Origin: a gamma proteobacterium symbiont of Stewartia floridana
GTDB lineage: Bacteria; Pseudomonadota; Gammaproteobacteria; Chromatiales; Chromatiaceae
Length of the DNA stretch: 64,000 bases
Direction of reading: 5' to 3'
NCBI GenBank assembly: GCA_003676145.1
Contig: NAUB01000027.1
Location: 1 to 64,000 of the forward strand
Part shown: piece after piece, positions 41,801 to 56,498 of the stretch
Position numbering within the stretch: the stretch's first letter is position 1
Layout: every line of letters starts with the position of its first letter
Position numbers and translations under genes: made by a program
The notes under the pieces: generated by a model
What the model was told of the DNA's origin: nothing
The model's database searches: none
The model's input: the letters and a program-made list of their open reading frames with translations, nothing else

Positions 41801-41824
41801 CACACGCTCCTCGGGTAAAGCAAT

Positions 41825-41840
41825 TGCAAGCCGTGGACCA
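41825..41840 (-). promoter_or_regulatory. Possible sigma-54 promoter before the torD-fdh operon
   Basis: Minus strand TGGTCCACGGCTTGCA keeps the invariant GG and GC at the exact 12-bp spacing and a perfect TTGCA -12 element; the -24 element has two mismatches to TGGCAC. The predicted start is near 41814, about 14 nt before the ATG. The sequence also lies in a CCGTGGA/TCCACGG hairpin, so it might be a chance match. Confidence 0.4.
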
Positions 41841-41896
41841 AATCCACGGGTAAAAAAATGACAAAAGGGGAATCGAATGGCGAAGCATCGGCGATT

Positions 41897-43507
41897 TTAT
41901 TGGCGAATCTGTCCATCCATCGCGTCCGGGTCCTGGGCAATATCAACCACTCGGCACTCATCACACAGACTCAGACGCCTGATTGCCCGCTCATTTTGAA
42001 ACATGTAGTGGTCACTGAGTCGGCTGCGCATCTTCTCGATTACCGAGCGGGTGGCGAAGGGTTTGCCACAGGAGACGCAGTGAAATGGCTGCTCTTCGTG
42101 CAGGGTACGCGGCTGCTTTCTGCTCTCAGCATCGAACAACAGCCTGGGGGTAATCGAGATTGCATCCTCGGGACAGGTGCTGATGCAGAGACCACACTGC
42201 AGGCAGTTGGCCTCGACAAAGCGAAGTTGTGGCTGCTCACCCGAACCGCTCTGCAGCGCTTTCCCCGGACAGACGCCGACACAGGAGAAACAGAGGGTGC
42301 AGGCATGGCTGGATACGCTGACATTGCCAAACGGAGCACCCTGACTCAGACTGGCCATGGGTTCCGCCCGGACTGCCTGGCCGACCAGGTGATCGATCGC
42401 CAGATAGGCGGTCTGACGCTTATCCCCAAGTCCGGAAAAACCGGCTGTTTCCAGCTCAGGCATCAGCGAACCGACTTCAGCCTGCTCCGCTTGGACCAGT
42501 CTGATCACCCCGGCAGGGTAGCCCATGGCGGTCAGAATCTCTTCAGCGGTGGTCAGTTGCTGTTGCAGGGCGTCACTCACACCGGCTGACATCTCCTGCC
42601 GATCCATCAGCCAGACCGCCCTGGCGCCATAGGCCAGAGCCGAGAGCCAGACCTCCAGCCCCACACTGGCGAGCTCTTCCACCTGCATCACCAGATGATT
42701 GCCCATTGCCGGCTCAGGAAAGGGCTGGTCACCCTCCGCAGTAATCAGTAGCAGTGGATCCACTCCTCCGGCATCACGGTAAACCGTGAGCAGTTTACGC
42801 AACCGCTCCAGGGTGTCCTTTACACTGGGATAGACATAGCGTATTGCACCGCTTGGGCAGACTGTGGCGCAGGCTCCTCCACCCTGACAGAGATAGGCAT
42901 TCACCTCGATGGTCTCAGCCAGGCTGCTGATGGCTTCTGCTGGACAGACATCAAGACAACGGCTGCAGGCGGTTTGTCCCGATCGCCCATGGGCGCAGAT
43001 TTGTGGGTCGTAATCGAAATAGCGGGGTTTTTCGAACTGCCCTTTCATCTCCCCCAGGGTGGCAATCACCTGATCCAGTTCACCGTCATCCCCTGCACAG
43101 TGGAAATAGCCGGGAGGTGTCATCGCACGATCCAACAGAGGCTCTGGTGACAGATCGAGAATCAGATCCACGGCCAGAAGCTCATAATTAGCCTGCCCCG
43201 CCTCGCCGAGATGGATCTTGAAATCCCCCAGAAAACCATCAATCTCAATCGCCCTTCCACCCAGCGGCACCAATGGAACACCCGGCTCCTCGGCACCTGC
43301 GGTGAGAATCACCATTGGATGCAATCGATCACCAAGCCCCGGAGCAACCTCCATCGCCCGCTGGTCACCGATCACTGCCAAGCGCCCTCGGCTCTGGTAG
43401 TTGACCAGTCCTGTGGCCTCAATTCTGACTCGCCCCATGGCGGCCTGGGCCTCTCGGCGGGCCTGTTGATTGATCTGCTGTACGGTATTGTGGTTAGTCT
43501 CATTCAT
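41897..43507 (-). CDS. Multi-cluster 4Fe-4S protein linked to formate dehydrogenase
   Basis: 536 residues. Cys motifs in order: CAHGRSGQTACSRCLDVCPAEAI, CQGGGACATVCPSGAI, then CTLCFSCVGVCPGKAL and CLQCGLCISTCPEDAI, predicting four [4Fe-4S] clusters, plus a terminal CVSCGKPF...CDECRVVD knuckle. The middle (about 270-370) resembles a region that could bind a partner. Homologues sit with DUF3305/DUF3306 and TorD genes beside fdhA in many proteobacteria. Probably an electron carrier or maturation protein in the cytoplasm (no signal peptide). Overlaps the DUF3306 gene by 4 bp. Confidence 0.85.
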   Translation of the reverse strand: MNETNHNTVQQINQQARREAQAAMGRVRIEATGLVNYQSRGRLAVIGDQRAMEVAPGLGDRLHPMVILTAGAEEPGVPLVPLGGRAIEIDGFLGDFKIHLGEAGQANYELLAVDLILDLSPEPLLDRAMTPPGYFHCAGDDGELDQVIATLGEMKGQFEKPRYFDYDPQICAHGRSGQTACSRCLDVCPAEAISSLAETIEVNAYLCQGGGACATVCPSGAIRYVYPSVKDTLERLRKLLTVYRDAGGVDPLLLITAEGDQPFPEPAMGNHLVMQVEELASVGLEVWLSALAYGARAVWLMDRQEMSAGVSDALQQQLTTAEEILTAMGYPAGVIRLVQAEQAEVGSLMPELETAGFSGLGDKRQTAYLAIDHLVGQAVRAEPMASLSQGAPFGNVSVSSHACTLCFSCVGVCPGKALQSGSGEQPQLRFVEANCLQCGLCISTCPEDAISITPRLLFDAESRKQPRTLHEEQPFHCVSCGKPFATRSVIEKMRSRLSDHYMFQNERAIRRLSLCDECRVVDIAQDPDAMDGQIRQ

Positions 43508-44040
43508 GAGGGGATCTCTCGATTGTCATTATCATTGGACGGTTGTTGCTGAGTAAGCGGTTGCGGATCCTCTGTTGAGGTTTGATCATCGCTTTGCAAA
43601 GCCGTCGCATCGGACTCAACCGGCTCTGCTTCTGCCTGCTCCTGCTGCTCTGCTTCTCTTTGCGCTTGCATCTCAAGCTGATGCTTTAGGTCAGCGGTGA
43701 TCACATCCCCCAGGGCTTCGAACGTGGTGAAGTCCTCCGCATAGTCATCCAGGCCGTCACAGAGATTGAAATCACTGCCGTGGAAGAGTTTGCGCAAGGC
43801 CATCTTGCGCAGCGGCTCTGAGACTTTGGGAGAGAGAAAACCGCTGTAGTCGGATGAGTCGTCGAGCGACTCCAGAGGTGGCATATCCTCATCGCAGGGC
43901 TGGTCCAGTGTCTGTTCCGCCTCGGCCTGTTCAATCAGAGGTTGCTGAGAGGCCAGCTTTCGATCCGACCAGCGTCTGATAAAACTCTCATCACGGCTCT
44001 CTCGCCGCTCATCCAGAGGCTTTTTTTCATCAGGCTCCAT
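43504..44040 (-). CDS. DUF3306 protein of the formate dehydrogenase cluster
   Basis: 178 residues from MEPDEKKPLDERRES (ATG at 44040, GAGGGG upstream; the longer frame to 44205 lies inside the DUF3305 gene). Family core: ESFIRRWSDRKLASQ, DMPPLESLDDSSDYSGFLSPKVSEPLRKMALRKLFHGSDFNLCDGLDDYAEDFTTFEALGDVI. The tail is acidic, Glu/Gln rich and likely disordered. It is only ever noted beside molybdenum-dependent FDH genes; function unknown. Its start overlaps the end of the DUF3305 gene by 11 bp. Confidence 0.85.
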   Translation of the reverse strand: MEPDEKKPLDERRESRDESFIRRWSDRKLASQQPLIEQAEAEQTLDQPCDEDMPPLESLDDSSDYSGFLSPKVSEPLRKMALRKLFHGSDFNLCDGLDDYAEDFTTFEALGDVITADLKHQLEMQAQREAEQQEQAEAEPVESDATALQSDDQTSTEDPQPLTQQQPSNDNDNREIPS

Positions 44041-44545
44041 GAGAGCCCCTCTCGGATTCACGCCAATCAGCCCGTTTGCGTTTGCTGCGCTTGGTCGGCA
44101 CATAGTGGGCAAGTACAAAGGCCTCAGCCCACTGATAGATCTCAGCCGGAACCGGAACGGCGTAGATCTCCTCATCACCCTCCAGATAGGCATGAGCCTC
44201 ATCAAAACTGAAACTCACCAAGAAGGGGGACGGTGTGCCGTCATCCGACATATCGGCAACCACATAACAGCGGGGATTCGCAGAGAGCAGATTGTGGTAA
44301 TAGCTCTCGCACTCATCCTCATGCAACCTGAGCTTGAAACCGTTGTGGAGGTAACGACTGGTCTCCTGCTGCTCATAAATCATCTCAGCCTGTTTCGGAT
44401 TGGCCGTTTTAGCGGTTGCCAGCACACCTACCGCTTCCCATTGATAGGGCTGCCACCGATTGGCGCTGGGTGACTTCTGCATAATCACCGATACCGAGAA
44501 CTCCCGGGGCAGGTCGTCACCGATTCTCTTGTGTGATGAAAACAT
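44030..44545 (-). CDS. DUF3305 protein of the formate dehydrogenase cluster
   Basis: 171 residues; AGGAGG about 8 bases before the ATG. Conserved parts: EFSVSVIMQKSPSANRWQPYQWEAVGVL, YLHNGFKLRLHEDECESYYHNLLSANPRCYVVADM and VPAEIYQWAEAFVLAHYVPTKRSKRKRADW, the DUF3305 pattern. The basic C terminus could contact the acidic DUF3306 protein (inference). First gene of a run DUF3305-DUF3306-ferredoxin that leads into torD-fdhABC. Confidence 0.85.
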   Translation of the reverse strand: MFSSHKRIGDDLPREFSVSVIMQKSPSANRWQPYQWEAVGVLATAKTANPKQAEMIYEQQETSRYLHNGFKLRLHEDECESYYHNLLSANPRCYVVADMSDDGTPSPFLVSFSFDEAHAYLEGDEEIYAVPVPAEIYQWAEAFVLAHYVPTKRSKRKRADWRESERGSHGA

Positions 44546-44604
44546 GCTCGATACCTCCTAATAGGAACCTTCTGGAGTGAATGACACTTGAACTTCAAGA
44601 AGAA

Positions 44605-44707
44605 AACCGCAATTCAACGCCAATCACCGCAAAGCAACGCAAAAAATGGTGCTCTATCGCTAGGGTTATTTGCGACATTTTGCGGTGATTGGCGTTCATT
44701 CGCGGTT
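44605..44707. repeat. Intergenic palindromic element, copy B
   Basis: Left arm AACCGCAATTCAACGCCAAT then CACCGC; right arm TTGCGACATTTTGCGGTGAT followed by TGGCGTTCATTCGCGGTT. Same arm layout and length (about 100 bp) as copies at 18.5 and 59.0 kb; the inner part shares GCTAGGGT with the 59.0-kb copy. It lies in the divergent gap between the DUF3305 gene and moaA. Confidence 0.72.
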
Positions 44708-44728
44708 AAAGTCCATAACAATGATTTG

Positions 44729-44759: not shown

Positions 44760-44883
44760 GGAAGTAAGTGCCACTCCGATCTGGAATCAACCGCAAGTTA
44801 TGTACCAGAGAGCCTATCTTGAAGATCATCAGGGAAATCGCGGCGCCGGAAAATAATCCAAAAAATGGAGCTGTGGCAAAACA

Positions 44884-44923
44884 GGGCAAAATGTCCCGTT
44901 CTTATTCACAGAGTGAGACATTT
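44884..44923 (+). promoter_or_regulatory. Candidate enhancer sites upstream of moaA
   Basis: GGGCAAAATGTCCC (44884-44897) and GAGACATTT (44915-44923) resemble the inverted repeats GAGACAAAATGTCCA and GAGACAAATGGTCCC found upstream of tupA. The two half-elements are inverted, with centres about 31 bp apart, and sit about 85-110 bp upstream of the -24/-12 element, a normal distance for NtrC-type activators. Confidence 0.45.
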
Positions 44924-44982
44924 AATACCACTACCCCGCTGTAACCCTACGCAGCATGGGCCTCAAACAGGGTATCGAGATC

Positions 44983-44998
44983 CGGTATGACTTTTGCC
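44983..44998 (+). promoter_or_regulatory. Possible sigma-54 promoter of moaA-fdhD
   Basis: CGGTATGACTTTTGCC keeps GG (44984-44985) and GC (44996-44997) 12 bp apart and TT before GC; four other consensus positions differ. Predicted start near 45009, 27 nt before the moaA ATG. Weaker than the tupA site, but supported by the related upstream repeats. Confidence 0.4.
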
Positions 44999-45035
44999 TA
45001 TAGAGTACAAGCGCTTGTTGGAGAGACCCTAATCA

Positions 45036-46058
45036 ATGCCCGATACAAACAATAAACCGGCAGCTGAGACCCAGCGCCTGACCGACCGTTTCAATCGCCA
45101 GGTCACCTATCTGCGTATCTCGGTCACCGACCGGTGTGATCTGCGCTGCGTCTACTGCATGTCTGAAGATATGAAGTTCGTCCCCAGAACCCAGCTGCTG
45201 ACCCTGGAAGAGCTCTACCGGGTGGCCAAAAATTTTGTCGGGATGGGGGTCAACAAGATCCGCATTACCGGTGGCGAACCCTTGACCCGACGGGGCATCA
45301 TGCAGCTGTTTCAGGCACTTGGCAGGCTACCCGGCCTGAAAGACCTGACCCTGACCACCAACGGCACCCAGCTGACACGCTATGCCAAGGCCCTGAAGAC
45401 TGCCGGTGTTAGCCGCATCAACATCAGCCTGGATACCTTGCAGGCAGATCGTTTCCACGAAATGACCCGGGTTGGCGATATTCAACGCACCCTGAACGGT
45501 ATCGACGCCGCTCTGGAAGCCGGTTTCAAGCGGCTGAAGATCAATACAGTGATCCTCAAGGATCGCAACCACGATGAAGTGATCGATCTGGTCCGTTTCG
45601 CTGAAACCCGCGGTATGGACATCAGCTTCATCGAAGAGATGCCCCTTGGCGAGATCAATGATCACGATCGGCAACAGGTCTTCTATTCAAGCGACCAGGT
45701 TCTGCAGGATATCCAGCAACATTACGAAACGATTCCAACCACCGAAACCACCGGTGGACCGGCCCGCTACTATCGCCTCAACGGTTTGCAAAGCCGGGTG
45801 GGATTCATCTCCCCCCACAGCCACAACTTCTGTGAACACTGCAATCGGGTGCGCTTAACGGCAGAAGGCCGATTGCTGCTCTGTCTGGGCCAGGAGCACT
45901 CCATGGATCTGCGCCGTGTGGTACGCGGCAATCCGCTTGATGATGCCCCCTTGCGTCAAGCCATCATCGATGCCATGCAGATCAAACCGAAAGGACATGA
46001 GTTTGACCTCAGCAGCCAACCGGTGCTGTTCCGGCATATGAATGTTACCGGAGGATAA
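45036..46058 (+). CDS. moaA: GTP 3',8-cyclase
   Basis: Radical SAM enzyme for the first step of molybdopterin synthesis. 340 residues. The N-terminal cluster motif TDRCDLRCVYCMSEDM (CxxxCxxC), the GGEPLTRRGI SAM loop, the C-terminal cluster SHNFCEHCNRVRLTAEGRLLLCLG, and the terminal VTGG tail essential for GTP activation are all present. It opens a plus-strand operon with fdhD and a regulator gene. The partner enzyme MoaC is not in this window. Confidence 0.97.
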   Translation: MPDTNNKPAAETQRLTDRFNRQVTYLRISVTDRCDLRCVYCMSEDMKFVPRTQLLTLEELYRVAKNFVGMGVNKIRITGGEPLTRRGIMQLFQALGRLPGLKDLTLTTNGTQLTRYAKALKTAGVSRINISLDTLQADRFHEMTRVGDIQRTLNGIDAALEAGFKRLKINTVILKDRNHDEVIDLVRFAETRGMDISFIEEMPLGEINDHDRQQVFYSSDQVLQDIQQHYETIPTTETTGGPARYYRLNGLQSRVGFISPHSHNFCEHCNRVRLTAEGRLLLCLGQEHSMDLRRVVRGNPLDDAPLRQAIIDAMQIKPKGHEFDLSSQPVLFRHMNVTGG

Positions 46059-46068
46059 GGTGACCGCA

Positions 46069-46953
46069 ATGAACAAGGCCAATGAGTACACTCATCGCCC
46101 ACAGCTTACCGATGCCGGTCTGAGTGCCGCCCACCCCGCCACTGCGGTGGATGAATACGGTGAGATACGTCGTGGTCGGGTTGCGGCAGAACGGGCGCTG
46201 ACCGTCTATCTGGATAAACAGGAGATCGTGACTCTGATGACCCTGGGCACCCGCCCGGAGATGCTGGTATTGGGCTGGCTGCACAACCAGCGACTGATCA
46301 AGACAATTGATCAGGTCAAGGCCATCCAGGTGGATTGGGAGACTGAGTCGGCTGCGGTCACCACCTTTGAAGGCATTCCGGATCTGCAACAAAAAACCGC
46401 TCGTAAGACGGTCACCACCGGCTGTGGCCAGGGCACGGTTTTCGGTGATCTGATGGAGGATCTAGATAAAATCAAACTGCCACAATCAACCCATCTGCAA
46501 TCCGGCATCTATGCCTTACTGAAGAATCTCAGCAGCTACAATGAAGTCTACCAGCGTGCCGGGGCTGTGCATGGCTGCGCGCTCTGTCGGGGGGCCGAAA
46601 TCCTGCTGTTCATCGAGGATGTGGGACGACACAATGCGGTCGATGCCATCGCCGGCAACATGCTGCTTGATTCCATTCCCGGCAGGGACAAACTCTTCTA
46701 CACCACCGGCCGACTCACCTCGGAGATGGTGATCAAGGTCGCGCAGATGGGCATCCCCCTCCTGCTCTCCCGCTCAGGCGCCACCCAGATGGGCGTGGAA
46801 CTGGCCAAACGTATTGGCGTCACCCTGATCGCAAGGGCCAAGGGTAAACACTTTTTAATCTATAACGGGGCAGAGAATATTACTTTCGACGCCATACCGC
46901 CGGTGCGTTATCAGACCAACCAGAAGAAACCGGTGGAACACGCCAAGAGTTGA
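46069..46953 (+). CDS. fdhD: Formate dehydrogenase accessory sulfurtransferase
   Basis: 294 residues from MNKANEYTHRPQL; AAGG is 8 bases upstream, while the earlier ATG at 46042 overlaps moaA. FdhD passes sulfur from a desulfurase to the bis-MGD cofactor of FDH. Key features: the loop GAVHGCALCRGAEIL with the CxxC pair, FIEDVGRHNAVDAIAGNMLLD, and FYTTGRLTSEMVIKVAQMGIPLLLSRSGAT. It follows moaA by 10 bp and matches the fdhA gene nearby. Confidence 0.95.
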   Translation: MNKANEYTHRPQLTDAGLSAAHPATAVDEYGEIRRGRVAAERALTVYLDKQEIVTLMTLGTRPEMLVLGWLHNQRLIKTIDQVKAIQVDWETESAAVTTFEGIPDLQQKTARKTVTTGCGQGTVFGDLMEDLDKIKLPQSTHLQSGIYALLKNLSSYNEVYQRAGAVHGCALCRGAEILLFIEDVGRHNAVDAIAGNMLLDSIPGRDKLFYTTGRLTSEMVIKVAQMGIPLLLSRSGATQMGVELAKRIGVTLIARAKGKHFLIYNGAENITFDAIPPVRYQTNQKKPVEHAKS

Positions 46954-46969
46954 ACATAAAGGAGAGGAT

Positions 46970-47884
46970 ATGGCTGCAGTGATCTCGCAAGACCAGCATG
47001 TATTCATGAACGTCAAACAGGTTGCTGAATACCTGCACCTTAACGAGAAGAAGATCTACTCTCTGGTCAACGAGGAGCGTATTCCGGCAACCAAAATCAC
47101 CGGCAAGTGGCTGTTTCCCAGAGAGCTGGTGGATCGATGGATGCTCGATTCCGCCCATGGTGGCCTGATGACCAACCGATTGGTGATTGCCGGCAGTGAC
47201 GATCCCCTGCTCTATCGATTGATCATGAATTTTGCCCAGGAGACCGGTGCCCACGCCCTGATCAGCTACTCACCGACAGGTACCCGACTCGGCCTGGATC
47301 TGCTTCAGGCGAACCGCATCGATGCCTGTGGGATACACTGGGGGCCCAACCAGGAGAGCAACACCCGCCACCCGGCCCTGTTACGCCAATATCCCCAGTT
47401 CCGACAATGGGTGCTGATTCGTCTGTTTCGCCGGGAACAGGGTTTGATGGTCAATCGCACGCTGGGTGAACTCAGGCCGGACACCAAAACCCTGCTGGAG
47501 GGCAATCATCGCTGGGCAATGCGACAAAGCGGTGCCGGTGCACAACGCTTTCTGCTCGAAGTACTCAGCCAACACAATGTCAATATCGAACAGTTGAACT
47601 CGGTCTGCACCGCCCTGTCGGAGCGGGAGGCGGCGGCCAGTATCGCCATGAATCAGGCCGATGCGGCACCCGGTGCGCGTGCCGCCGCGCAGGAGTATGG
47701 CCTCGATTTCATACCCTTCGGTTGGGAGTCCTTCGATCTGGCCCTGCCGAGAAACATCTGGTTCCGTCGTTTGTTCCAGGATCTGATCAATCGCCTTCGC
47801 TCGGCCGACTGCCAGGCCATGGGGGAGCGTCTTGGGGGCTATGATCTGAGTGAAGCGGGAGAGCTGGTGTGGGGGGATGAGTAG
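46970..47884 (+). CDS. Excisionase-type HTH regulator with periplasmic-binding-protein-like domain
   Basis: 304 residues. The N-terminal MerR/excisionase-like DNA-binding domain reads FMNVKQVAEYLHLNEKKIYSLVNEERIPATKITGKWLFPRELVDRW. The rest is a type-2 substrate-binding-like domain (PBP-like, related to ModA-type folds) with LVIAGSDDPLLYRLIMNF and RQSGAGAQRFLLEVL. Such proteins accompany molybdate or tungstate genes and are thought to sense the oxyanion. It is 16 bp after fdhD, in the same operon. It may control moaA-fdhD, tup or fdh genes; no operator was assigned. Confidence 0.82.
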   Translation: MAAVISQDQHVFMNVKQVAEYLHLNEKKIYSLVNEERIPATKITGKWLFPRELVDRWMLDSAHGGLMTNRLVIAGSDDPLLYRLIMNFAQETGAHALISYSPTGTRLGLDLLQANRIDACGIHWGPNQESNTRHPALLRQYPQFRQWVLIRLFRREQGLMVNRTLGELRPDTKTLLEGNHRWAMRQSGAGAQRFLLEVLSQHNVNIEQLNSVCTALSEREAAASIAMNQADAAPGARAAAQEYGLDFIPFGWESFDLALPRNIWFRRLFQDLINRLRSADCQAMGERLGGYDLSEAGELVWGDE

Positions 47885-47919
47885 CCTGTCTCTTTCGAAA
47901 AGTCTTTAAGAATAAAAAA

Positions 47920-48120
47920 GTCCGCGAATGAACGCGAATAAACGCAAATGGTTTGTTGTTACTCTGGCAAATCTGCTCTGATACTCACACGTCGTGACCC
48001 CAATGAATTGGAGGGATATGAAGCGTTAATTTCTGTTCGCCCCAAACGGCACCAGAACTGCGCTCAATCACACACAAATCTCTCTTCACCATTTGCGTTT
48101 ATTCGCGTTCATTAGCGGAC
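47920..48120. repeat. Long inverted repeat element with 32-bp arms
   Basis: GTCCGCGAATGAACGCGAAT continuing AAACGCAAATGG (47920-47951) is complemented, with one mismatch in 32 bases, by the right arm starting CCATTTGCGTTTATTCGCG (48089-48120). The 137-bp centre has no frame of note. The arms are relatives of the 100-bp elements at 18.5, 44.6 and 59.0 kb. It fills much of the gap 47885-48282. Confidence 0.75.
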
Positions 48121-48282
48121 TATTTTCTCTTCTTGACTGATCAGAGATTACACTAGTATGCGTCCAATACCGACCAATGGTCTGATCTCCAGCTGGCCCA
48201 CGACTTCACCTGTAAAAAGAGTCAGTGGTATGATGGACTCATCCACTCATCGTTGCCGCTTTCTGAATCGACAGGCCATATT

Positions 48283-48714
48283 ATGAAAACAGGTTATCTG
48301 GTACTGGAAACCCACCCTGATCACGTCGGTATGATCAGAGCCAGGATCAGAGATGAGCTGCCAAACACCCAGGAGTCTGAAGCGGGTTCCGAGATCCGCT
48401 ACATCGCCCGTTTCGATGATATCGAAGCGGCTCTGATGCACTTGCATAACCAGCTTCACAACAGACTGGTCGATCTCGACAACCGACTCTACGAAACCGA
48501 AGTATCCCATGCCATCTCTGCTGTGGAATCGGATGATCTGAGTCATCAACAGGTGTGGATCGATCCCAGCATAGACACTGAGACGAGAGCCGCAATCGAT
48601 GCGGAAACAGCACAACTCAAACGTCGGCATGCCCTCTGGAACCGAACCTGGATGATCGTCGGCGGTTTTTTTGTGCTGTTGTTTTTTTTCCTCAATATAA
48701 TCAGTGGCGTCTAG
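48283..48714 (+). CDS. Tail-anchored protein of unknown function
   Basis: 143 residues from MKTGYLVLETHPDHVGMIRARI (ATG at 48283, AGG seven bases upstream). Cytoplasmic part of about 120 residues: an ISDELP-like ferredoxin-fold start (YLVLETHPDHVGMIRARIRDEL, IRYIARFDDIEAALMHLHNQLHNRL), then an acidic helix. One C-terminal membrane helix (TWMIVGGFFVLLFFFLNII) ends the protein. No family recognised. It lies alone between repeat elements. Confidence 0.7.
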   Translation: MKTGYLVLETHPDHVGMIRARIRDELPNTQESEAGSEIRYIARFDDIEAALMHLHNQLHNRLVDLDNRLYETEVSHAISAVESDDLSHQQVWIDPSIDTETRAAIDAETAQLKRRHALWNRTWMIVGGFFVLLFFFLNIISGV

Positions 48715-48758
48715 GGCCTGCTAACACACACGCATCAACCATGGACCGCTTCTGTGAT

Positions 48759-48804
48759 TGGCCGCGAATGGACGCCAATCACCGCAAAGGTTCGCGAATG
48801 ACAG
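48759..48804. repeat. Single arm of the intergenic repeat family
   Basis: TGGCCGCGAATGGACGCCAA continuing TCACCGCAAAGG and a second CGCGAATGACAG. It matches the left arms of the 100-bp elements, but no right arm is seen within 200 bp. Part of the 277-bp gap between the tail-anchored protein gene and moaB. Confidence 0.55.
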
Positions 48805-48991
48805 CTTATTAGCCCCTCTCCCTTGATGGGAGAGGGGAGCTAATCTCTCTACCTGTTTACACCCTGAAGATTGGTCACGCTTAAGCGTTATCTTGTCTCG
48901 GTTGATGTCACAAACCTCGACAGGTTAGAGAAAGCAACTGAAATTAACCCGCCAGGATCCTGTCGATCAAAATCAAATTGCCATGGAATAA

Positions 48992-49513
48992 CTATTTCTC
49001 CAATAATCTGGGCATCAGTTCCACCAGATTGCAGGGTTGTGTCCGGTAATCGAGTTGCGCGGCGATCAATTTACTCCAGCCATCCTTACAGGCGCCGGTT
49101 GAGCCCGGCAGACAGAAGACAAAGGTGCCATTGGCAACGCCGGCGATCGCCCGGGACTGCATGGTCGATGTGCCGATGATCTCATAGGAGAGTGAGCGAA
49201 ACATCTCACCAAAACCATTGATGATCTTATCCAGTAGCGGTTCAACCGCCTCGGGTGTCCCGTCCCTTCCTGTCAACCCCGTACCACCGGTGGTGATAAC
49301 CACCTGCACATCCGGATTGGCAATCCACTCGGAGACCACCGCTCTGATCTGATAGCGATCATCTTTCACGATGCGTTTATCGGCCAGCTTATGCCCAGCC
49401 TCTTCCAGCATGCTCTTGAGCTTGTGGCCGGATTTGTCATTCTCTTCCGTTCGTGTGTCCGAAACGGTCATTACACTGATATTCAAAGGGATAAACTGAC
49501 GTTCGTCACTCAT
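48992..49513 (-). CDS. moaB: Molybdenum cofactor biosynthesis protein B
   Basis: 173 residues of the MoaB/MogA fold, which binds molybdopterin and, in MogA-type proteins, adenylates it before metal insertion. Traits: ISVMTVSDTRTEENDKSGHKLKSMLEEAGH, VQVVITTGGTGLTGRDGTPEAVEPLLDKIINGFGEMFRSLSYEIIGTSTMQSRAIAGVANGTFVFCLPGSTGACKDGWSKLI. Minus strand, about 138 bp from the HD-domain gene. Confidence 0.95.
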   Translation of the reverse strand: MSDERQFIPLNISVMTVSDTRTEENDKSGHKLKSMLEEAGHKLADKRIVKDDRYQIRAVVSEWIANPDVQVVITTGGTGLTGRDGTPEAVEPLLDKIINGFGEMFRSLSYEIIGTSTMQSRAIAGVANGTFVFCLPGSTGACKDGWSKLIAAQLDYRTQPCNLVELMPRLLEK

Positions 49514-49651
49514 GTTGTAGACTCCGTGGATCTCATTCTATTCATCAGGAAAAGCAGTCGATAGCATGCCAGCTGTAAAGCACATTGCCTTGATCAAGAT
49601 CAGAACTCAAGCGTCGCTTACGCCTTATGCCCTGGCGGACTGGCAAACGCA

Positions 49652-50185
49652 TCAAGGTCGTTTGCTGTAGGCGTCATCGAACAGCAACTCGAGACCCTGA
49701 TGGGCGCCTCTCAAGCCATCGATAACGTCCTTGGCCCAATCGAAATAGGCCTGTCGTCGGGACAGGTCCCAGCCTTTCGGGGGACTGTGGGCGATATCCC
49801 TCAGATTGGCGATTTTGTCTGCCAGCTTTACCAGCTTGGCCTTTTCAGAGAGATTGGGGGCATGGTGTATCTGCATCGCTTTGCGCTCAAGCTTGGAAAG
49901 GGATTGGTCGTCAGATACCTCCATCACCAGGCTGGCGATCACCAATCCGAACTCGGCTTCAATCTCTTCAAAGGTCGTCTCCGTATCCTCAATCGTATCA
50001 TGCAGCAAGGCGGTTATCAGCGTCTCTGTATCATAGACCGCCCCTTCATTCACCAGAATATCCATCAAGGTGATGGGGTGGTTGACATAGGGGGTCTCCT
50101 GAACATCCTTACGTCGTTGATCCCGATGCTTTTGGGCGGAAAATGCCAACGCCTTGACGATCAATTGAAGTAGCTTGTTATTCAT
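49652..50185 (-). CDS. HD-domain (p)ppGpp hydrolase-like protein
   Basis: 177 residues, a small single-domain relative of the RelA/SpoT hydrolase domain (MESH1 type). Motifs: AFSAQKHRDQRRKDVQETPYVNHPITL (first His and Arg), LITALLHDTIEDTETTFEEI (HD pair) and KAKLVKLADKIANLRDI (last Asp). All metal-binding residues expected for Mn-dependent hydrolysis appear present. Small alarmone hydrolases remove ppGpp; NADPH phosphatase activity is also known in the group. It is 100 bp downstream of the sensor kinase gene. Confidence 0.85.
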   Translation of the reverse strand: MNNKLLQLIVKALAFSAQKHRDQRRKDVQETPYVNHPITLMDILVNEGAVYDTETLITALLHDTIEDTETTFEEIEAEFGLVIASLVMEVSDDQSLSKLERKAMQIHHAPNLSEKAKLVKLADKIANLRDIAHSPPKGWDLSRRQAYFDWAKDVIDGLRGAHQGLELLFDDAYSKRP

Positions 50186-50287
50186 AGTCAGTTATAGGTT
50201 TTATTTGTAATGTGTTTCTTGATGAGCATTCAAGCATCCTGGATTATCCGCTTCGGCCTAACTTTCGGCCGGATCAGTCAACAGGTC

Positions 50288-52357
50288 CTAATTATTATAA
50301 TGCTCGAACAAGCTCTTCTCATCATCAACCATATCGGCCTCCCGATAGAGCCAGATGGTAAACACGGAGCCCTTACCCAACTCAGAGCTGACGCCGATCT
50401 CACCACCATATTTTTTGATCAGGCTGTAACTGACCGAAAGCCCAAGACCGGTACCCTCACCGGTCGGCTTACCGCTGTTGAATGGATTGAAGATGGAACC
50501 CAGTCTTTGCGGTGCAATCCCACTGCCATTGTCGATCACTTCGATCACCACGCCTTTGTTCTCCCAGTCGGCACTGCGCAGGCTGATCTCCCCATCCTGC
50601 TGATGCAGTGCATGGACCGCATTCACCACCAGATTGACCAACACCTGCTGTAGCTCCTGGGAGTTGATCTTCACCTGTCTGGTCGCCTTAAGATCCAGAT
50701 TGATTTCAAAATCGCTCTTGCTGCGCAGATGGCGAACCAGAACCAAAGTGTGCTCAATCACACTGTTGACATCGGTATAGACGGCCTCACCGCTCATCTG
50801 ATCGGTGCGGGCGTACTGCAGCAGACTGTTGATAATATCCTTGATGCGGAAGATCTGCTCGATCACCAGATCGATCTCCTCTTTTACCGGTTCCGCATCC
50901 TTGCCCAGCTCGGCTACCAACAGATCCAGATTACCCAGCATTACCGCGGTCGGATTGTTGATCTCATGCGCGACCCCCGCTGTCAGCTCCCCGAGTGCAG
51001 CCAGCTTCTCCGCATTGATCAGCTGAGCCCTGGTCTCCTTGAGGGTTTGAATCATGCTCAGCAATCGCTCATTCTTCAACTTCAATTCCGTTGTTCGCTC
51101 CTCCACCTTCTCCTCCAACTGATCCGTCCACTCCAGCATCTGACGGTTACGCTGCTGCAGAAGATCCAACAACAGATCAAACTCTTTCGCCAGAACACCG
51201 ATCTCATCGGTGGATGAGACCTGACCAATACGCCTGGTATAACCTTCACGGGTGGCACGAACCACGCTCATCATCATTTCCAGAGGCTTGAATATCGACT
51301 TAGCCCCCCTGATGGAGAGTAGCGAGGATAAAAACATCAACGCCAGAAAAAGCAGGATCAGCACCACCAACGCCTGCCAGAGCGCATTACGCGACGGCGC
51401 CTCAAGAAAACCGGCATACAGCATGCCGACCCGTTCGCCATTCACATCGATAATCGGTTGGTAAGCGGAGATATACCAGTCATTCACCACAAACGCCCGA
51501 TCGATCCATTTTTTGCCATGTTCCAACACCTGGGTTCGCACCTCATCAGAAACCCGGGTACCCAGTGCCCTTTCATTCACGGCGCGTGGCACATTGGTGG
51601 TGATTCGCACATCATCGAGAAACACCGTCACAGTACCGATGCTGCCCTCAGGCAGACTGCCTGGACCATAGACAAGATCCCTGATGGTATCGACGAACTT
51701 GAAGTTACCATTCAGCAATACCCCGCCATCGAGTATCGCCACCACCACCCCCCTCGAGTTCTTCACCGGATAGAGGGCCCTGATCATCATCCCCCGCTCT
51801 TCCACCTGCTGATCCGTCGGCCTGGCTCTGGGGGTTTCGAGCAGTGGCAGTGCAACCTTGTCTGCCAATCCTCGGGATTGGGTTTCAAGCGCTTCAGCGG
51901 AGAAGATCTCAATCTCCACTTTCGGTGTTCCCTGCAGGGCGATCAATAGCGAGGGAGAGGGATGGGCTCGCTGAGGCAGTTCGGCGTCGGTGGTAAAGGT
52001 GATTCTGCCATCCAAACCGAGCAGATGCAGATAGGAGAAATCGTTCTGTTGCCGGATCTTCTCCAGCTGTTGATGGATCACTCCACCACTTTTCGACTCC
52101 AGTGCGGTATTGAAGGTATAGGACTCAGCCAGGCGGGCCAGGGTATTCAGATAATCCTGCTGCAGACGGTGAAAGTTGTCCTCAGCCACGGAGAGATCCG
52201 TATTGACCTTGATAAACAGCTGATCATAACTGAACTGGGAGCCCCAATAGATGGCCAGCCCAAGCGCAATCGGCATGATCAGAAGAATCGGAAACAGTAC
52301 CAGCACCAGCATTTTATAACGCAAGGTGCTCTGGATGGTACGGATCAGTTTCAACAC
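50288..52357 (-). CDS. Cache-domain sensor histidine kinase
   Basis: 689 residues from the GTG at 52357, four bases past the response-regulator stop; the longer frame to 52450 lies inside that gene. TM1 about residues 16-38, a long periplasmic double-Cache-like domain (about 40-300) ending VVNDWYISAYQPIIDVNGERVGMLYAGF, TM2, HAMP, a coiled-coil (EEKVEERTTELKLKNERLLS), HisKA with the His in GVAHEINNPTAVMLGNL, and an ATPase domain with IDNGSGI and GEGTGLGLSVSYSLI. Partner of the NtrC-type regulator. The ligand may be formate, molybdate/tungstate or another small anion; unknown. Confidence 0.9.
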   Translation of the reverse strand: MLKLIRTIQSTLRYKMLVLVLFPILLIMPIALGLAIYWGSQFSYDQLFIKVNTDLSVAEDNFHRLQQDYLNTLARLAESYTFNTALESKSGGVIHQQLEKIRQQNDFSYLHLLGLDGRITFTTDAELPQRAHPSPSLLIALQGTPKVEIEIFSAEALETQSRGLADKVALPLLETPRARPTDQQVEERGMMIRALYPVKNSRGVVVAILDGGVLLNGNFKFVDTIRDLVYGPGSLPEGSIGTVTVFLDDVRITTNVPRAVNERALGTRVSDEVRTQVLEHGKKWIDRAFVVNDWYISAYQPIIDVNGERVGMLYAGFLEAPSRNALWQALVVLILLFLALMFLSSLLSIRGAKSIFKPLEMMMSVVRATREGYTRRIGQVSSTDEIGVLAKEFDLLLDLLQQRNRQMLEWTDQLEEKVEERTTELKLKNERLLSMIQTLKETRAQLINAEKLAALGELTAGVAHEINNPTAVMLGNLDLLVAELGKDAEPVKEEIDLVIEQIFRIKDIINSLLQYARTDQMSGEAVYTDVNSVIEHTLVLVRHLRSKSDFEINLDLKATRQVKINSQELQQVLVNLVVNAVHALHQQDGEISLRSADWENKGVVIEVIDNGSGIAPQRLGSIFNPFNSGKPTGEGTGLGLSVSYSLIKKYGGEIGVSSELGKGSVFTIWLYREADMVDDEKSLFEHYNN

Positions 52358-52361
52358 GGAC

Positions 52362-53774
52362 TCAGGTGATTCCCCAGGCCTGTGCTTTACGTTCAAGTGT
52401 CTTGCGCGAAATTCCCAACACCCGGGCGGCAGCCGATTTATTACCCCCATGAAGGTCGAGCACCTTCAGGATATGCCTTTTCTCTACGGCCTCGAGCTGC
52501 AACGAAGCTTCCGATTGCTCAGGAACCGTCTCACCATCCTGCTGTTCAGTCGCGGTGATGCAAAGACTCGGCGAGCGATTCAACAGCAGACAGCGCTCAA
52601 TCACATTTTTCAATTCCCGCACGTTTCCAGGCCAGTCGTAGTGCATCAGCAACTCGATCTCGTTCTCCCCCAATACCGGGACATCGATCCCCAGGTCGGA
52701 AGCCAGCGTATGCATGAAGTGGTTGGCCAGCAGCGGTATATCCTCACTTCGCTCCCTTAAGGCTGGCATACGCAGTGTCAGCACATTGAGTCGATAGTAG
52801 AGATCTTCACGGAACTCCCCTTTTTGTACCTCATTACCCAGATCCCGGTTGGTAGCAGCAATAATCCTTACGTCGACAGGGACTTCCCGATTGGAGCCGA
52901 CAGGACGGATGGTGCGCTCTTCAAGGGAGCGCAACAGGTGAGCCTGCATCGAGAGGGGCATCTCACCAATCTCATCAAGGAACAGGGTGCCTCCATTGGC
53001 GTAGGTAAACAGTCCATCCCGGGAGAGATGAGCGCCGGTAAAGGCGCCTTTTACATGACCGAACAACTCACTCTCCAACAACTCGGCACTCATAGCGCCA
53101 CAGTTGACCGGTACAAAACTGCCAGAGCGGTTGCTTAAGTCGTGTATCGCCCGGGCAGCCAGCTCTTTACCGGTGCCCGATTCACCTTCGATCAGTACCG
53201 TGGAGGGCATCGGAGCCACCCGTTTGACCACTTCACACAAGGCATGCATCTGCTGGCACTCACCAACGATGCCGGAGCTGTCATAGATCTGATCGACCTG
53301 GCGTCGCAACACAAAGTTCTCACGCTGCATCTTCTGTCGATCCAGATAGCGTTCTACGGATGCCACCATCTGCTCCATACGGAACGGTTTCATGATGAAA
53401 TCCTCGGCACCGGCCCTAAGCGCAGAGATGGCCGTCTCCAGGTCTGCATGGGCGGTCATGAAGATCACCCCTGTGGTCCCGCCCTGCTCACGCAACTCCC
53501 TTACCCACTCAACGCCACCCCGGTGGCCTGGCAGGCGAATGTCCGTGATGATCAGATCAAAATGGCAGTGTTTACGCAGCTCTTCGGCTGTAGCGACATC
53601 CTTGGCGGTTTCCACCAGCCCGAAATGGCGTCTCAACCCTTTCTGTAAAAAGCTGAGGATACCCGGTTCATCGTCCACGATGAGCACCGAGGTCATTCGG
53701 CTGGTTGTACCTTCCTTGTGGTAAACGCTTGTGGACTCATCCCGAACCACAAGCTCTTCAGTTTTAATGTTCAT
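52362..53774 (-). CDS. Sigma-54-dependent NtrC-family response regulator
   Basis: 470 residues from the ATG at 53774 (an ATG at 53696 starting MTSVLIVDDE is also possible). Receiver with phospho-acceptor Asp in FDLIITDIRLPGHRGG and switch Lys in IMKPFR; AAA+ domain with Walker A GESGTGKE, the sigma-54 contact loop GAFTGAH, Walker B TLFLDEIGEMP and the R-finger region; C-terminal Fis-type helix-turn-helix (GNKSAAARVLGISRKTLERKAQAWGI). Adjacent to its kinase and divergent from tupABC, whose promoter is of sigma-54 type. It probably activates tup and related genes. Confidence 0.94.
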   Translation of the reverse strand: MNIKTEELVVRDESTSVYHKEGTTSRMTSVLIVDDEPGILSFLQKGLRRHFGLVETAKDVATAEELRKHCHFDLIITDIRLPGHRGGVEWVRELREQGGTTGVIFMTAHADLETAISALRAGAEDFIMKPFRMEQMVASVERYLDRQKMQRENFVLRRQVDQIYDSSGIVGECQQMHALCEVVKRVAPMPSTVLIEGESGTGKELAARAIHDLSNRSGSFVPVNCGAMSAELLESELFGHVKGAFTGAHLSRDGLFTYANGGTLFLDEIGEMPLSMQAHLLRSLEERTIRPVGSNREVPVDVRIIAATNRDLGNEVQKGEFREDLYYRLNVLTLRMPALRERSEDIPLLANHFMHTLASDLGIDVPVLGENEIELLMHYDWPGNVRELKNVIERCLLLNRSPSLCITATEQQDGETVPEQSEASLQLEAVEKRHILKVLDLHGGNKSAAARVLGISRKTLERKAQAWGIT

Positions 53775-53814
53775 TGAGTACTGTTCTATCAAGGCAATCC
53801 ACCGACGGCTGAGT

Positions 53815-53863
53815 GAGACAAAATGTCCAATAAAAAGTGTGTCAATCTGGGACCATTTGTCTC
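53815..53863. promoter_or_regulatory. Inverted pair of 15-bp palindromic sites, candidate enhancer
   Basis: GAGACAAAATGTCCA (53815-53829) and, on the other strand, GAGACAAATGGTCCC (53849-53863): near-identical inverted repeats in opposite orientation, centres 34 bp apart. They lie between the regulator gene and the sigma-54 promoter of tupA, about 150-200 bp upstream of the latter. These are the expected features of NtrC-type binding sites. Confidence 0.7.
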
Positions 53864-53943
53864 AATTTTGGACTCCCTTGAACAGCACAGGGAGAAACCG
53901 ACAGCTAAAGAATGCAGAAATTGTGCTTATAATCCTGCCATTA

Positions 53944-53984
53944 TCTACATAGTAGACAATACAGGTCCATTTGCTATTGCAAAT
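53944..53984. promoter_or_regulatory. Two further palindromes ahead of the tupA promoter
   Basis: TCTAC-ATA-GTAGA (53944-53956) and ATTTGC-TATT-GCAAAT (53969-53984) are perfect inverted repeats in AT-rich DNA between the enhancer-like sites and the -24/-12 element. They could be sites for the oxyanion-sensing regulator or for a DNA-bending factor such as IHF. Not assigned. Confidence 0.4.
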
Positions 53985-54010
53985 ACCATGACAACTTTCC
54001 TATATAAGAG

Positions 54011-54026
54011 TGGCACCACTCTTGCA
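54011..54026 (+). promoter_or_regulatory. Sigma-54 promoter of the tupABC-mobAB-moeA operon
   Basis: TGGCACCACTCTTGCA is an exact match to the TGGCAC-N5-TTGCA consensus, with GG and GC 12 bp apart. The predicted start is near 54037 and the leader to the tupA ATG about 197 nt. The adjacent divergent NtrC-family gene makes this the clearest regulatory assignment in the window. Confidence 0.85.
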
Positions 54027-54233: not shown

Positions 54234-55082
54234 ATGAATAAAAATATGGTGAAACACTTATTCACGCTCCTGTTGATGACGCTGCTTATACCGTTCACCA
54301 CAGCTCATGCAGACGCCAACAAGATCATCCGACTGGCCACCACAACCAGTACCGACAATTCAGGACTGCTTAAAGAGCTGCTACCGGAATTCCAAGCCGA
54401 CACCGGTTATAACGTCCATGTGATTGCGGTTGGTACAGGCAAAGCACTGCGTATGGGACGTGACGGCGATGTGGATGTGGTTCTGGTACACGCCAGGTCT
54501 GCCGAAGATCAGTTTGTCGCCCAGGGGCATGGTGAAAAACGATTCGGTGTGATGTACAACGACTTTGTGATCGTCGGTCCGCAAACTGACCCTGCCGGCT
54601 TATCCAAAGCCAAGGATGCCACCACCGCCCTGCAACTCATCGCTGAACATCAAGCGATCTTTGTCTCTCGCGGTGATGATTCCGGCACCCACAAAAAAGA
54701 GCTGGGTCTATGGAAAAAAGCGGCCGTCGATCCACAAGGGCAATGGTATCGTGAAGCGGGTCAGGGCATGGGTAAAGTGCTGCAGATCGCAGCGGAAATG
54801 GATGCCTATACCTTAACCGATCGGGGAACATGGCTTGCGTATGAGAAGAAGTCTCCGCTGAAAATCGGTTTTGAGGGCGATCCCCTGCTGTTCAATCCCT
54901 ATGGCATCATCGCAGTGAACCCACAGCGCTATCCCGACACCAATCATCGGGGCGCCCAGGCACTGATCCAGTGGCTGATCTCACCGGAGGGCCAGGAACG
55001 TATCAATAACTTCCGCATTGGCAGTAACCGTCTCTTTACACCATCCGCCGATGCCGGAGAGTTTGCCGCAGCCAAACACTGA
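54234..55082 (+). CDS. tupA: Tungstate/molybdate ABC transporter binding protein
   Basis: 282 residues from the ATG at 54234 (GAGG 9 bases upstream; the ATG at 54219 is less likely). Signal peptide about residues 1-27 (after AHA). Mature start KIIRLATTTSTDNSGLLKELLPEFQADTGYNVHVIAVGTGKALRMGRDGDVDVVLVHA with the TTTS anion-binding motif of TupA, and later SRGDDSGTHKKELGLWK. TupA binds tungstate more tightly than molybdate. First gene of a six-gene operon. Confidence 0.92.
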   Translation: MNKNMVKHLFTLLLMTLLIPFTTAHADANKIIRLATTTSTDNSGLLKELLPEFQADTGYNVHVIAVGTGKALRMGRDGDVDVVLVHARSAEDQFVAQGHGEKRFGVMYNDFVIVGPQTDPAGLSKAKDATTALQLIAEHQAIFVSRGDDSGTHKKELGLWKKAAVDPQGQWYREAGQGMGKVLQIAAEMDAYTLTDRGTWLAYEKKSPLKIGFEGDPLLFNPYGIIAVNPQRYPDTNHRGAQALIQWLISPEGQERINNFRIGSNRLFTPSADAGEFAAAKH

Positions 55083-55086
55083 CCAC

Positions 55087-55785
55087 ATGGATTCCTTGAC
55101 CACCACAACACTGGCAGCCCTGGAGTTGCTGTTCAGTGGCAACCCTGAACTCTGGGAGATCATTGCGATCTCCTTCAGGGTATCGGGGGTTGCCATACTG
55201 GTGGCGTCACCACCGGCTCTGCTGGTCGCTTTCATACTCGCCTACTACCAGTTCCCCGGCAGACGTCTGCTGATCTCCATCAACAGCACCCTGCTCTCCG
55301 TACCTGCCGTGGTCGTCGGCCTGACCCTTTTCATTCTGCTCTCCAGACAAGGTCCGCTTGGGGAGTGGAAGTTGCTCTTTACTCAGACGGCAATGGTGCT
55401 TGGTCAGATCGCACTTGCCTTTCCGATTCTTGTCGCCATGGGACACTCGGCACTGCAAGCCTGTGACCGCAGAGCCTGGGAGACGGCACGCACCCTGGGT
55501 GCAACACCGCTACGGGCACTGATTACCATCATGCGGGAGGCGCGCTTTGGCCTGATGGCAGCACTGCTCGCGGCGTTTGGCCGGATTATCGCCGAGGTTG
55601 GCGCATCCATGATGCTTGGCGGCAATATCCTCCACTATACCCGTAACATTCCAACCGCCATCGCATTGGAATCGAGTAAGGGTGAATTCGCTCAGGGTAT
55701 CGCCCTGGGTCTGGTTCTTTTGATTCTGGCATTCACTCTGAATGCCTTCCTGCAGCACTTTCAAGGTAAGGGGCAACCAGCCTGA
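55087..55785 (+). CDS. tupB: Tungstate ABC transporter permease
   Basis: 232 residues from MDSLTTTTLAALELLFSGNPELW, starting 4 bp after tupA. The first 23 residues of the longer frame lie within tupA and are discarded. Five or six membrane segments, with the binding-protein-dependent permease loop EARTLGATPLRALITIMREARFGLMAALLAAFGRIIAEVGASMMLGGN. TupB type. It overlaps tupC by one base (TGATG). Confidence 0.92.
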   Translation: MDSLTTTTLAALELLFSGNPELWEIIAISFRVSGVAILVASPPALLVAFILAYYQFPGRRLLISINSTLLSVPAVVVGLTLFILLSRQGPLGEWKLLFTQTAMVLGQIALAFPILVAMGHSALQACDRRAWETARTLGATPLRALITIMREARFGLMAALLAAFGRIIAEVGASMMLGGNILHYTRNIPTAIALESSKGEFAQGIALGLVLLILAFTLNAFLQHFQGKGQPA

Positions 55786-56498
55786 TGACTACAGCAGATC
55801 AATTCAATGTTCATTACCTGAAAAAACACTATGCCAAACGGCAGGTGCTGGACGAGGTCACCTTCTCCCTGCAAGCCGGACAGACCCACCTGTTGAGTGG
55901 TGACAATGGGGCAGGTAAAACCACCCTGTTACGTATTCTGGCTGGACTGGAGAAACCGGACAGCATCCAGATCGACCTGGGGATGGGTCCGCTCAACTGG
56001 CGCCATGTCAAAAAGACCCTGCAGCAGCATGCCCTCTATCTTCATCAACACCCGTATATGTTTGACGGCACGGTGAGCTACAACCTGGGCTATGCCATCG
56101 GTGTAAAACTGACCAAGCAAGAACGTCAACGACAGATCGATAAAGCCCTGGAGTGGGCCGACCTGAAACAGCTGTCACAGGCTCCGGCCAAATCACTCTC
56201 CGGTGGTGAGAAACAGCGGGTCTCCCTGGCCCGGGCCTGGTTGAAGAGACCGTCCATTCTGTTACTGGATGAACCCACCTCCAATCTGGACCAGGAATCG
56301 AGACATCGCACACTCAGTCTGCTGGAAGCCTTCAAAAGCGATGGTACAGCGATGCTGCTGGCCAGCCATGATCCTATGCACTTCCCCTCACTGATAGACC
56401 AGCACTTGCGTCTGGATCAGGGTAAACTGATCCGTATCGATGATCAGAATCCGATCGAATTCGATCAGACTCACCCTAACTTCAGGAGTACGGCGTGA
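55785..56498 (+). CDS. tupC: Tungstate ABC transporter ATPase
   Basis: 237 residues. Walker A LLSGDNGAGKTTLLRILAGL, Q-loop LYLHQHPYMFDGTV, signature KSLSGGEKQRVSLARAW, Walker B ILLLDEPTSNLD, switch His in LASHDP. Completes the TupABC importer. The stop overlaps the mobA start (GTGA). Confidence 0.92.
   Translation: MTTADQFNVHYLKKHYAKRQVLDEVTFSLQAGQTHLLSGDNGAGKTTLLRILAGLEKPDSIQIDLGMGPLNWRHVKKTLQQHALYLHQHPYMFDGTVSYNLGYAIGVKLTKQERQRQIDKALEWADLKQLSQAPAKSLSGGEKQRVSLARAWLKRPSILLLDEPTSNLDQESRHRTLSLLEAFKSDGTAMLLASHDPMHFPSLIDQHLRLDQGKLIRIDDQNPIEFDQTHPNFRSTA

Follow-up and report, generated by a model that had tools for sequence, protein, structure and literature searches.

A predicted formate-responsive NtrC/sigma-54 two-component system for formate dehydrogenase, tungstate/molybdate uptake and cofactor synthesis in a gammaproteobacterial symbiont

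In Escherichia coli, FhlA is a one-component cytoplasmic sigma-54 activator that binds formate in its N-terminal part. Sigma-54 promoters, whose -24/-12 element has the consensus TGGCAC-N5-TTGCW, require an AAA+ activator, and activators of the NtrC family use paired palindromes three turns apart upstream of such promoters. Here we describe a 64-kb stretch (64,000 nucleotides of contig NAUB01000027.1, hereafter the window) from the gammaproteobacterial symbiont of Stewartia floridana, which encodes a sensor histidine kinase and an NtrC-type response regulator together with a formate dehydrogenase (FDH), a tungstate/molybdate uptake system and enzymes for the synthesis of the bis-molybdopterin guanine dinucleotide (bis-MGD) cofactor (Table 1). 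We consider it likely that this two-component system responds to formate and controls, through sigma-54, a compact regulon for the enzyme, its metal and its cofactor. As in the FhlA/formate hydrogenlyase regulon, a sigma-54 activator would answer to formate as inducer, with FDH and accessory genes as targets; unlike FhlA, the system is split between a kinase in the membrane and a response regulator that carries a receiver domain, genes for metal uptake and cofactor synthesis are among its predicted targets, and the FDH has three subunits and is linked to the membrane. An earlier note on this DNA, made from the letters only, had proposed a regulon analogous to but different from the FhlA system, and this comparison is apt, although the mechanism is another one, with a membrane Cache kinase and an NtrC-type response regulator in the place of FhlA.

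According to the mechanism that we propose, formate in the periplasm would be bound by the sCache_3_3 domain of the kinase, which would then phosphorylate the adjacent regulator; the regulator would bind palindromes that occur in pairs, at a distance of approximately three helical turns, in front of tupA and in the gap that separates the DUF3305 operon from the moaA operon, loop the DNA and activate the sigma-54 polymerase. The output would be twofold: the respiratory, membrane-linked FDH with its maturation factors (TorD-like, FdhD, DUF3305/3306 and ferredoxin), and tungstate/molybdate uptake with bis-MGD synthesis (TupABC, MobAB, MoeA and MoaA). We infer activation, not repression, because sigma-54 promoters need an AAA+ activator.

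Other described systems share parts of this arrangement. RpoN of Vibrio cholerae is said to have been studied by chromatin immunoprecipitation sequencing (Dong and Mekalanos, in 2012). The available parts of a report on Vibrio parahaemolyticus describe an FDH cluster, VP1510-VP1515, of similar order (Fe-S protein, FDH chaperone, hypothetical protein, then large, Fe-S and cytochrome subunits) and of strong RpoN dependence, with log2 changes of -3.2 to -4.8 in an rpoN mutant; those parts differ from our proposal in naming no activator or signal, and an electrophoretic mobility shift assay without direct RpoN binding at the Vibrio fdh promoter counts against it (PMC9817140). The proteins PacF, Atu0526, 8PY0 and 8PY1 possess Cache_3-type sensor modules like that of the kinase but are chemotaxis receptors, whereas here the domain is predicted to drive a histidine kinase and gene expression. 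Among the papers listed in searches of the open-access literature, subscription journals being outside their scope, none assigns this kinase-regulator pair.

The regulator contains the receiver (PF00072), sigma-54 AAA+ (PF00158) and Fis-type helix-turn-helix (HTH; PF02954) domains, and the GAFTGA motif is found in 14 of 15 aligned regulator rows, with GASTGA in the remaining one. RpoN is encoded in the same genome (PF04552, E 3e-70). Moreover, its predicted targets show the hallmarks of the NtrC family, namely -24/-12 promoters with paired, helically phased upstream sites, the accepted pairs being mostly 31-35 bp apart. The best NCBIfam matches of regulator and kinase are AtoC and AtoS, both far under the family cut-offs; the regulator scores 421 bits against a cut-off of 714 for AtoC and 363 against 760 for ZraR, and thus belongs to neither family proper. 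The AtoSC and ZraSR systems are alike in domain architecture, but differ in sensor and targets. The NCBIfam model of FhlA (289 against 830 bits) aligns with residues 146-469 only, that is, with the AAA+ and HTH parts. The true start of the kinase possibly lies inside its open reading frame.

The tupA promoter TGGCACCACTCTTGCA equals the sigma-54 consensus at every specified base and, on an ad hoc scale that runs from 0 to 11 and gives each consensus base one point and a T at C half a point, is the sole element of score 11 in the window. Upstream of it, between tupA and the divergent regulator gene, lie two inverted near-palindromes that follow the pattern GGGACAWWWTGTCCC and whose centres are separated by 34 bp; the letters GAGACAAAATGTCC of the first one occupy positions 53815-53828 and those of its inverted partner positions 53850-53863. 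Direct reading of the letters thus bore out what the earlier note had said of this promoter and of the two repeats. As the frames from tupA through moeA overlap, the tupA promoter probably serves the cofactor-synthesis genes mobA, mobB and moeA as well. TupA is the sole NCBIfam family that matches the binding protein, yet at 248.6 bits against a cut-off of 400, so that either tungstate or molybdate may be its ligand. A further element of the tup region, AGTAGACAA-N14-CTA (window 53951-53976), lies about 55-62 bp upstream of the tupA -24 (about 104 bp in locus L013) and was present at all 21 tup loci fetched from the own genus but at none of the 48 others; in each of six genomes searched it has a single copy, at tupA, and its reversed control also occurs 0 or 1 times per genome. 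Possibly it is a second, tup-specific operator.

A similar pair is located between the DUF3305 and moaA operons. The earlier note had seen half-sites about 31 bp apart and a -24/-12-like element in front of moaA; the pair does exist, at a spacing of 32 bp instead of 31, and the element (CGGTATGACTTTTGCC) was confirmed by reading. Judged against the window only, the moaA element does not stand out, for dozens of GG-N10-GC elements score at least 8, and we trust it because it is conserved across genomes, not for its score there. A second element, on the minus strand in front of the DUF3305 operon (44807-44792), was absent from the note; it is also conserved, hence the site pair sits between two divergent sigma-54 promoters. 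Within the genus this element is TGGTAYRYAAYTTGCG-like and its distance to the pair is nearly fixed. The DUF3305 leader is longer in the window than in L070-L072, and repeated intergenic stretches such as CGCGAATGAACGCGAATAAACGC occur at window positions 44600-44720, 47915-47950, 48090-48130 and 48755-48800.

We then compared these regions across the order. The tupA gene, sought in 195 genomes, was found in 69 of them at 71 places; four places with matches cut at contig ends (G084, G094, G168 and G191) were left out, as were L136 and L137, which repeat L030 and L032, and the 67 distinct loci were classified, with a regulator cut-off of 540 bits, into 34 with the regulator divergent and adjacent, 14 with the regulator elsewhere and 19 (17 genomes) without it. 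The site matrix was seeded with the window repeat, and its training used 29 loci with divergent regulator, the other five of the 34 being near-identical and excluded; sigma-54 elements at tup had to score at least 9, and site pairs had to exceed the 99th percentile of mononucleotide shuffles. Where the regulator is divergent, the sigma-54 element was present at 34/34 tup loci and the pair at 33/34. The 19 loci without regulator had the element in five cases, the pair in two and both in two; two of these genomes, G174 and G183, encode a protein related to the regulator but of lower score (444 and 487 bits). The tup loci of G002 (L032) and G164 (L034), assemblies in which the regulator was not found, retain a sigma-54 element and one good site, perhaps as decaying remnants.

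The matrix trained on tup loci only was also applied to 47 DUF3305/moaA loci, nine others being excluded for a missing region (L073, L077, L087, L091, L092, L095, L097, L291 and L301). Among the 43 loci from 42 genomes that bear the regulator, the pair was found in 37, the minus-strand sigma-54 element in 41 and the plus-strand element in 40. Two congeneric genomes, G017 and G050, keep fdhA, tup, DUF3305 (divergent from fdhD) and RpoN, and the regulator was not found in them; the DUF3305/fdhD gap of both contains neither a pair nor a sigma-54 element of score 8, and sites and sigma-54 elements are missing at tup too. Of 19 regulator-less genomes checked for RpoN, 18 encode it. In two genomes of genus g20 (G055 and G046), the regulator gene is divergent to mobB, and a site pair lies in that gap. 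The regulon put forward by the earlier note is thus supported, as sites and sigma-54 elements track the regulator gene.

Several of these counts speak for caution. Since the matrix was seeded with the window repeat, the tup counts are partly circular, of which the DUF3305/moaA and other-family counts are free. Taken by themselves, score-9 sigma-54 elements were also seen at 5 of the 19 tup loci without regulator, and 6 of the 43 DUF3305/moaA loci have no pair above threshold (one lies just below, at 8.1). When the regulator is not adjacent, the pair was found at 4 of 14 tup loci and pair plus sigma-54 element at 2; as the other 12 do not have both, tup is not part of the regulon in every regulator-bearing genome. 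Additionally, G105 and G161, whose assemblies are 92% and 89% complete, possess sites although no regulator reached the cut-off, G161 having a regulator fragment beside tupA.

Could the palindromes be operators of another protein, e.g., the HTH_17/PBP_like product of the moaA operon, with the NtrC-type gene as a bystander? That gene is kept in 9 of 12 long loci of the family and, outside it, in 3 of the 7 loci that have the module, and its product is a possible ligand-responsive regulator of the moaA-fdhD operon. We regard a role as owner of the palindromes as very improbable, given that the layout of the pairs is typical of NtrC-family activators and the sigma-54 elements need one, and that the sites vanish with the regulator and reappear at its new neighbour when it moves. 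The NtrC-type regulator itself would be the protein that binds the paired sites.

The earlier note had proposed a genome-wide scan for GAGAC-N5-GTCC; in the own genome this pattern yielded 12 matches against 61 for a reversed control, and the single palindrome with up to two mismatches 166 per strand against 169 in the control. Neither is enriched, so the proposed scan is not diagnostic, and single sites at chance level are what would be expected if the motifs were chance resemblances. That explanation is negligible in view of the conservation across divergent intergenic regions and of the result with pair profiles. Using sequence-only pair profiles (A1 and R1), to which both loci contributed sequences, we scored 150 of 463 first-look candidates of the 4.55-Mb genome; the tup pair reached E 3e-7, the moaA pair E 1.5e-4 and the next match E 0.17. 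Across 14 genomes, matches with E < 0.1 lay at tup, at DUF3305/moaA, in the regulator-mobB gap (G055) and before an HTH_17 gene (G046). As the profile is convincing at two loci only, the regulon looks narrow. Three further candidates were dropped: C13:28089 lies inside a trpB-like frame, C26:25573 (the R1 match at E 0.17) shows no pair by the matrix (L185), and the pair at window 28880 (score 14.5) is outside the regulon and probably due to chance. Rfam at its gathering threshold gave no RNA family within the window.

The regulator also tracks its presumed target genes. It was present, at 540 bits or more, in 51 of the 195 genomes of the order, 14 further genomes having only a relative of 425-510 bits. 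The fdhA gene occurs in 48/51 genomes with the regulator versus 5/144 without it (Fisher p 4e-36, shared descent being ignored), and tup in 49/51 versus 20/144. A search of 114 genomes of the class for sCache_3_3 revealed 15 domains; the R..T...R..GT motif, discussed below, is present in ten, all above 90 bits, and absent from five below 45 bits. Besides the one of the own genome and those of L330 and L336, the ten comprise seven kinases beside a regulator and fdh, tup or mob genes (L338-L342, L344 and L345), and these seven module genomes belong to seven other families. Site pairs of score 19 or more were detected in four of them (three in L338, one in L342, two in L344 and one in L345), the matrix showing none in L339, L340 and L341, a point against the proposal. 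Non-conservation of the repeats, named by the earlier note as grounds for refutation, was not what we observed: repeats and spacing are kept in the genus, in much of the family and in these four genomes. At L343, L346, L347 and L348, four sCache_3_3 loci of which long stretches were fetched, none of the genes of the module was found. A scan of named genomes with the regulator alignment and two AAA+ peptides, in which the matches listed were mostly paralogues, gave 80 loci; in the 1.15 Mb around these NtrC-type relatives, no more than two pairs reach a score of 12 and, at a matrix threshold of 16, a single one (L236) remains, unlinked to the module, and pair profile R1 had no match in the 22 of the 80 loci to which it was applied. 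The relevant regulator relatives of that set, L203, L204, L205 and L233, did not show a site pair. Two of them merit mention in their own right. In Vibrio albus (L205), a homologous kinase-regulator pair (37% and 44% identical) is divergent to mobA-mobB, and is a candidate activator of the RpoN-dependent Vibrio FDH cluster. In Mangrovicoccus sp. (L233, 9001-10365), a 44% relative of the regulator has both an FDH operon and a tup operon as neighbours.

Control of the enzyme genes themselves is a weaker part of the proposal. The -24/-12-like element that the earlier note had placed before torD-fdh, TGGTCCACGGCTTGCA, is present on the minus strand and was read directly, and elements as good as this one and that of moaA occur elsewhere in the window. 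It is not accompanied by a site pair in the own genome, and the fetched loci show no consistent high-scoring site upstream of fdhA; hence, read-through from the DUF3305 promoter or another activator at the sigma-54 element might make control of torD-fdhABC indirect, an explanation that we rate as a serious one, though below even chances. Against it, the -24/-12 element together with a T-rich block (TTTTGTCATTTTTTTACC) directly precedes torD in no fewer than 23 of the 30 fdhA loci that were fetched (L060, L062 and L066 are too short, and L055, L056, L063 and L067 have a better match elsewhere), and the torD region of G017, where the regulator was not found, contains no sigma-54 element. Moreover, in L345 a site pair plus TGGCACGGCAATTGCG stands in front of torD, an indication that the regulator can act on torD-fdhABC directly, as we also infer for the own genome. 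The suggestion of the earlier note that one kinase-regulator pair might switch on the whole pathway is supported for tup and for moaA in the window, and is weaker for torD, which is without a pair, and for genomes in which tup is not included. The T-rich block is too near the torD -24 for a usual enhancer. Near the FDH operon lies a gene for a MOT1-family molybdate transporter (PF16983; window 33569-34819), before which the matrix shows no site pair.

As to the signal, the periplasmic part of the kinase is an sCache_3_3 domain (PF17202, E 2e-30, 105.5 bits against a cut-off of 28.8). A phmmer search with this part against the PDB returned 8py1 (E 1.6e-5) and 8py0 (E 0.0065), followed by a match at E 0.64, and the first two are chemoreceptor sensor domains whose Foldseek titles read "in complex with formate". 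Changes of the PacF residues R142, T145 and T158 are reported to affect formate binding (PMC12501870), and another report describes formate binding by an sCache_3_3 chemoreceptor that has these reported residues (PMC12415202). R282, T285 and T298 of the kinase (R, T+3 and T+16) correspond in spacing to R142/T145/T158 of PacF, their columns are invariant across the 18 aligned kinases, and the same R/T/T residues are present in the 8py0 and 8py1 alignments. The AlphaFold model of kinase residues 65-365 is confident (mean predicted local distance difference test score of 90), and Foldseek aligns it locally with 8py0 in 122 columns, of which 21% are identical, at 2.7 A. The ligand of the kinase is thus probably extracytoplasmic formate.

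Other observations on the sensor point the opposite way. Foldseek places generic Cache sensors first among the matches to the sensor model, with 8py0 at rank 10, and the matches listed from a profile search with the whole kinase (60 of 92) were kinase cores with no sensor domain. The distant kinases L204 and L205 carry three additional residues ahead of the last T, and in L205 R294 is replaced by K. According to the accessible parts of its report, Atu0526 R115A still binds formate, this arginine being required for the response and not for binding (PMC8698456). The motif also occurs in L330 and L336, sCache_3_3 proteins unlinked to genes of the module, as would be expected of a formate-binding family and without being proof of the ligand. 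With the same regulon and promoters, the kinase might instead sense tungstate/molybdate supply, another small carboxylate or anion, or the redox state, which would suit the role of tup-mob as a metal-supply operon and the many ligands that Cache domains bind according to PDB titles. We find this unlikely, since the only solved sensor relatives of significant sequence similarity are formate complexes, the formate residues of PacF are invariant, and the regulator tracks fdhA about as tightly as tup, with regulator-less tup commoner than regulator-less fdhA. Formate therefore remains our preferred signal.

Table 1. Positions of the predicted genes, promoters and sites in the window
Feature	Position	Strand	Basis
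Cytochrome b	35834..36922	-	Pfam/NCBIfam
fdhB	37303..37932	-	Pfam/NCBIfam
fdhA	37960..40857	-	Pfam/NCBIfam
torD-like chaperone	41135..41803	-	Pfam/NCBIfam
Sigma-54 promoter element TGGTCCACGGCTTGCA of torD-fdhABC	41825..41840	-	sequence, conservation
Conserved T-rich block TTTTGTCATTTTTTTACC, close to the torD -24 on its upstream side	41850..41870	-	locus comparison
4Fe-4S protein (ferredoxin)	41897..43507	-	Pfam/NCBIfam
DUF3306 protein	43504..44205	-	Pfam/NCBIfam
DUF3305 protein	44030..44545	-	Pfam/NCBIfam
Sigma-54 promoter element of DUF3305-DUF3306-ferredoxin operon	44792..44807	-	sequence, conservation
Putative upstream activator site a, common to the two divergent promoters	44883..44897	strand-neutral	sequence and matrix
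Putative upstream activator site b, partner of site a at a spacing of 32 bp	44915..44929	strand-neutral	sequence and matrix
Sigma-54 promoter element CGGTATGACTTTTGCC of moaA-fdhD-HTH_17/PBP_like	44983..44998	+	sequence, conservation
moaA	45036..46058	+	Pfam/NCBIfam
fdhD	46042..46953	+	Pfam/NCBIfam
HTH_17 and PBP_like fusion, same operon as moaA-fdhD	46970..47884	+	Pfam/NCBIfam
Sensor histidine kinase (periplasmic sCache_3_3, HisKA, HATPase)	50288..52450	-	Pfam; alignment of 18 kinases
Codons of the kinase motif R282-x2-T285 ... R294-x2-G297-T298	51557..51607	-	kinase alignment, PacF comparison
NtrC-type response regulator (receiver, sigma-54 AAA+ with GAFTGA, Fis-type HTH)	52362..53774	-	Pfam, alignment
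Putative upstream activator site 1, near-palindrome, tup side	53815..53829	strand-neutral	sequence and matrix
Putative upstream activator site 2, inverted partner, 34 bp from site 1	53849..53863	strand-neutral	sequence and matrix
tupA promoter, sigma-54 element TGGCACCACTCTTGCA, serves tupABC-mobAB-moeA operon	54011..54026	+	sequence read directly
tupA, tungstate-type substrate-binding protein	54234..55082	+	Pfam, NCBIfam
tupB (ABC permease)	55018..55785	+	Pfam
tupC (ATPase)	55785..56498	+	Pfam
mobA, mobB, moeA (cofactor synthesis, metal insertion), overlapping frames after tupC	56495..58923	+	Pfam

Our collective results lead us to favour, with moderate confidence, a gammaproteobacterial formate-sensing two-component system, present in at least eight families, that would couple tungstate/molybdate acquisition and bis-MGD synthesis in a feed-forward manner to formate via sigma-54; with the same reserve, it may be seen as a two-component counterpart of FhlA, in which a chemoreceptor-type formate Cache domain is joined to an NtrC-type pathway. 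The proposal supplies a regulator, a signal, sites and targets for a type of FDH cluster which is RpoN-dependent in Vibrio and for which the available parts of the report leave the activator unnamed (PMC9817140). If it is true, the uptake of the metal would be induced by the enzyme's own substrate, and formate-binding Cache domains would extend from chemotaxis to gene regulation.

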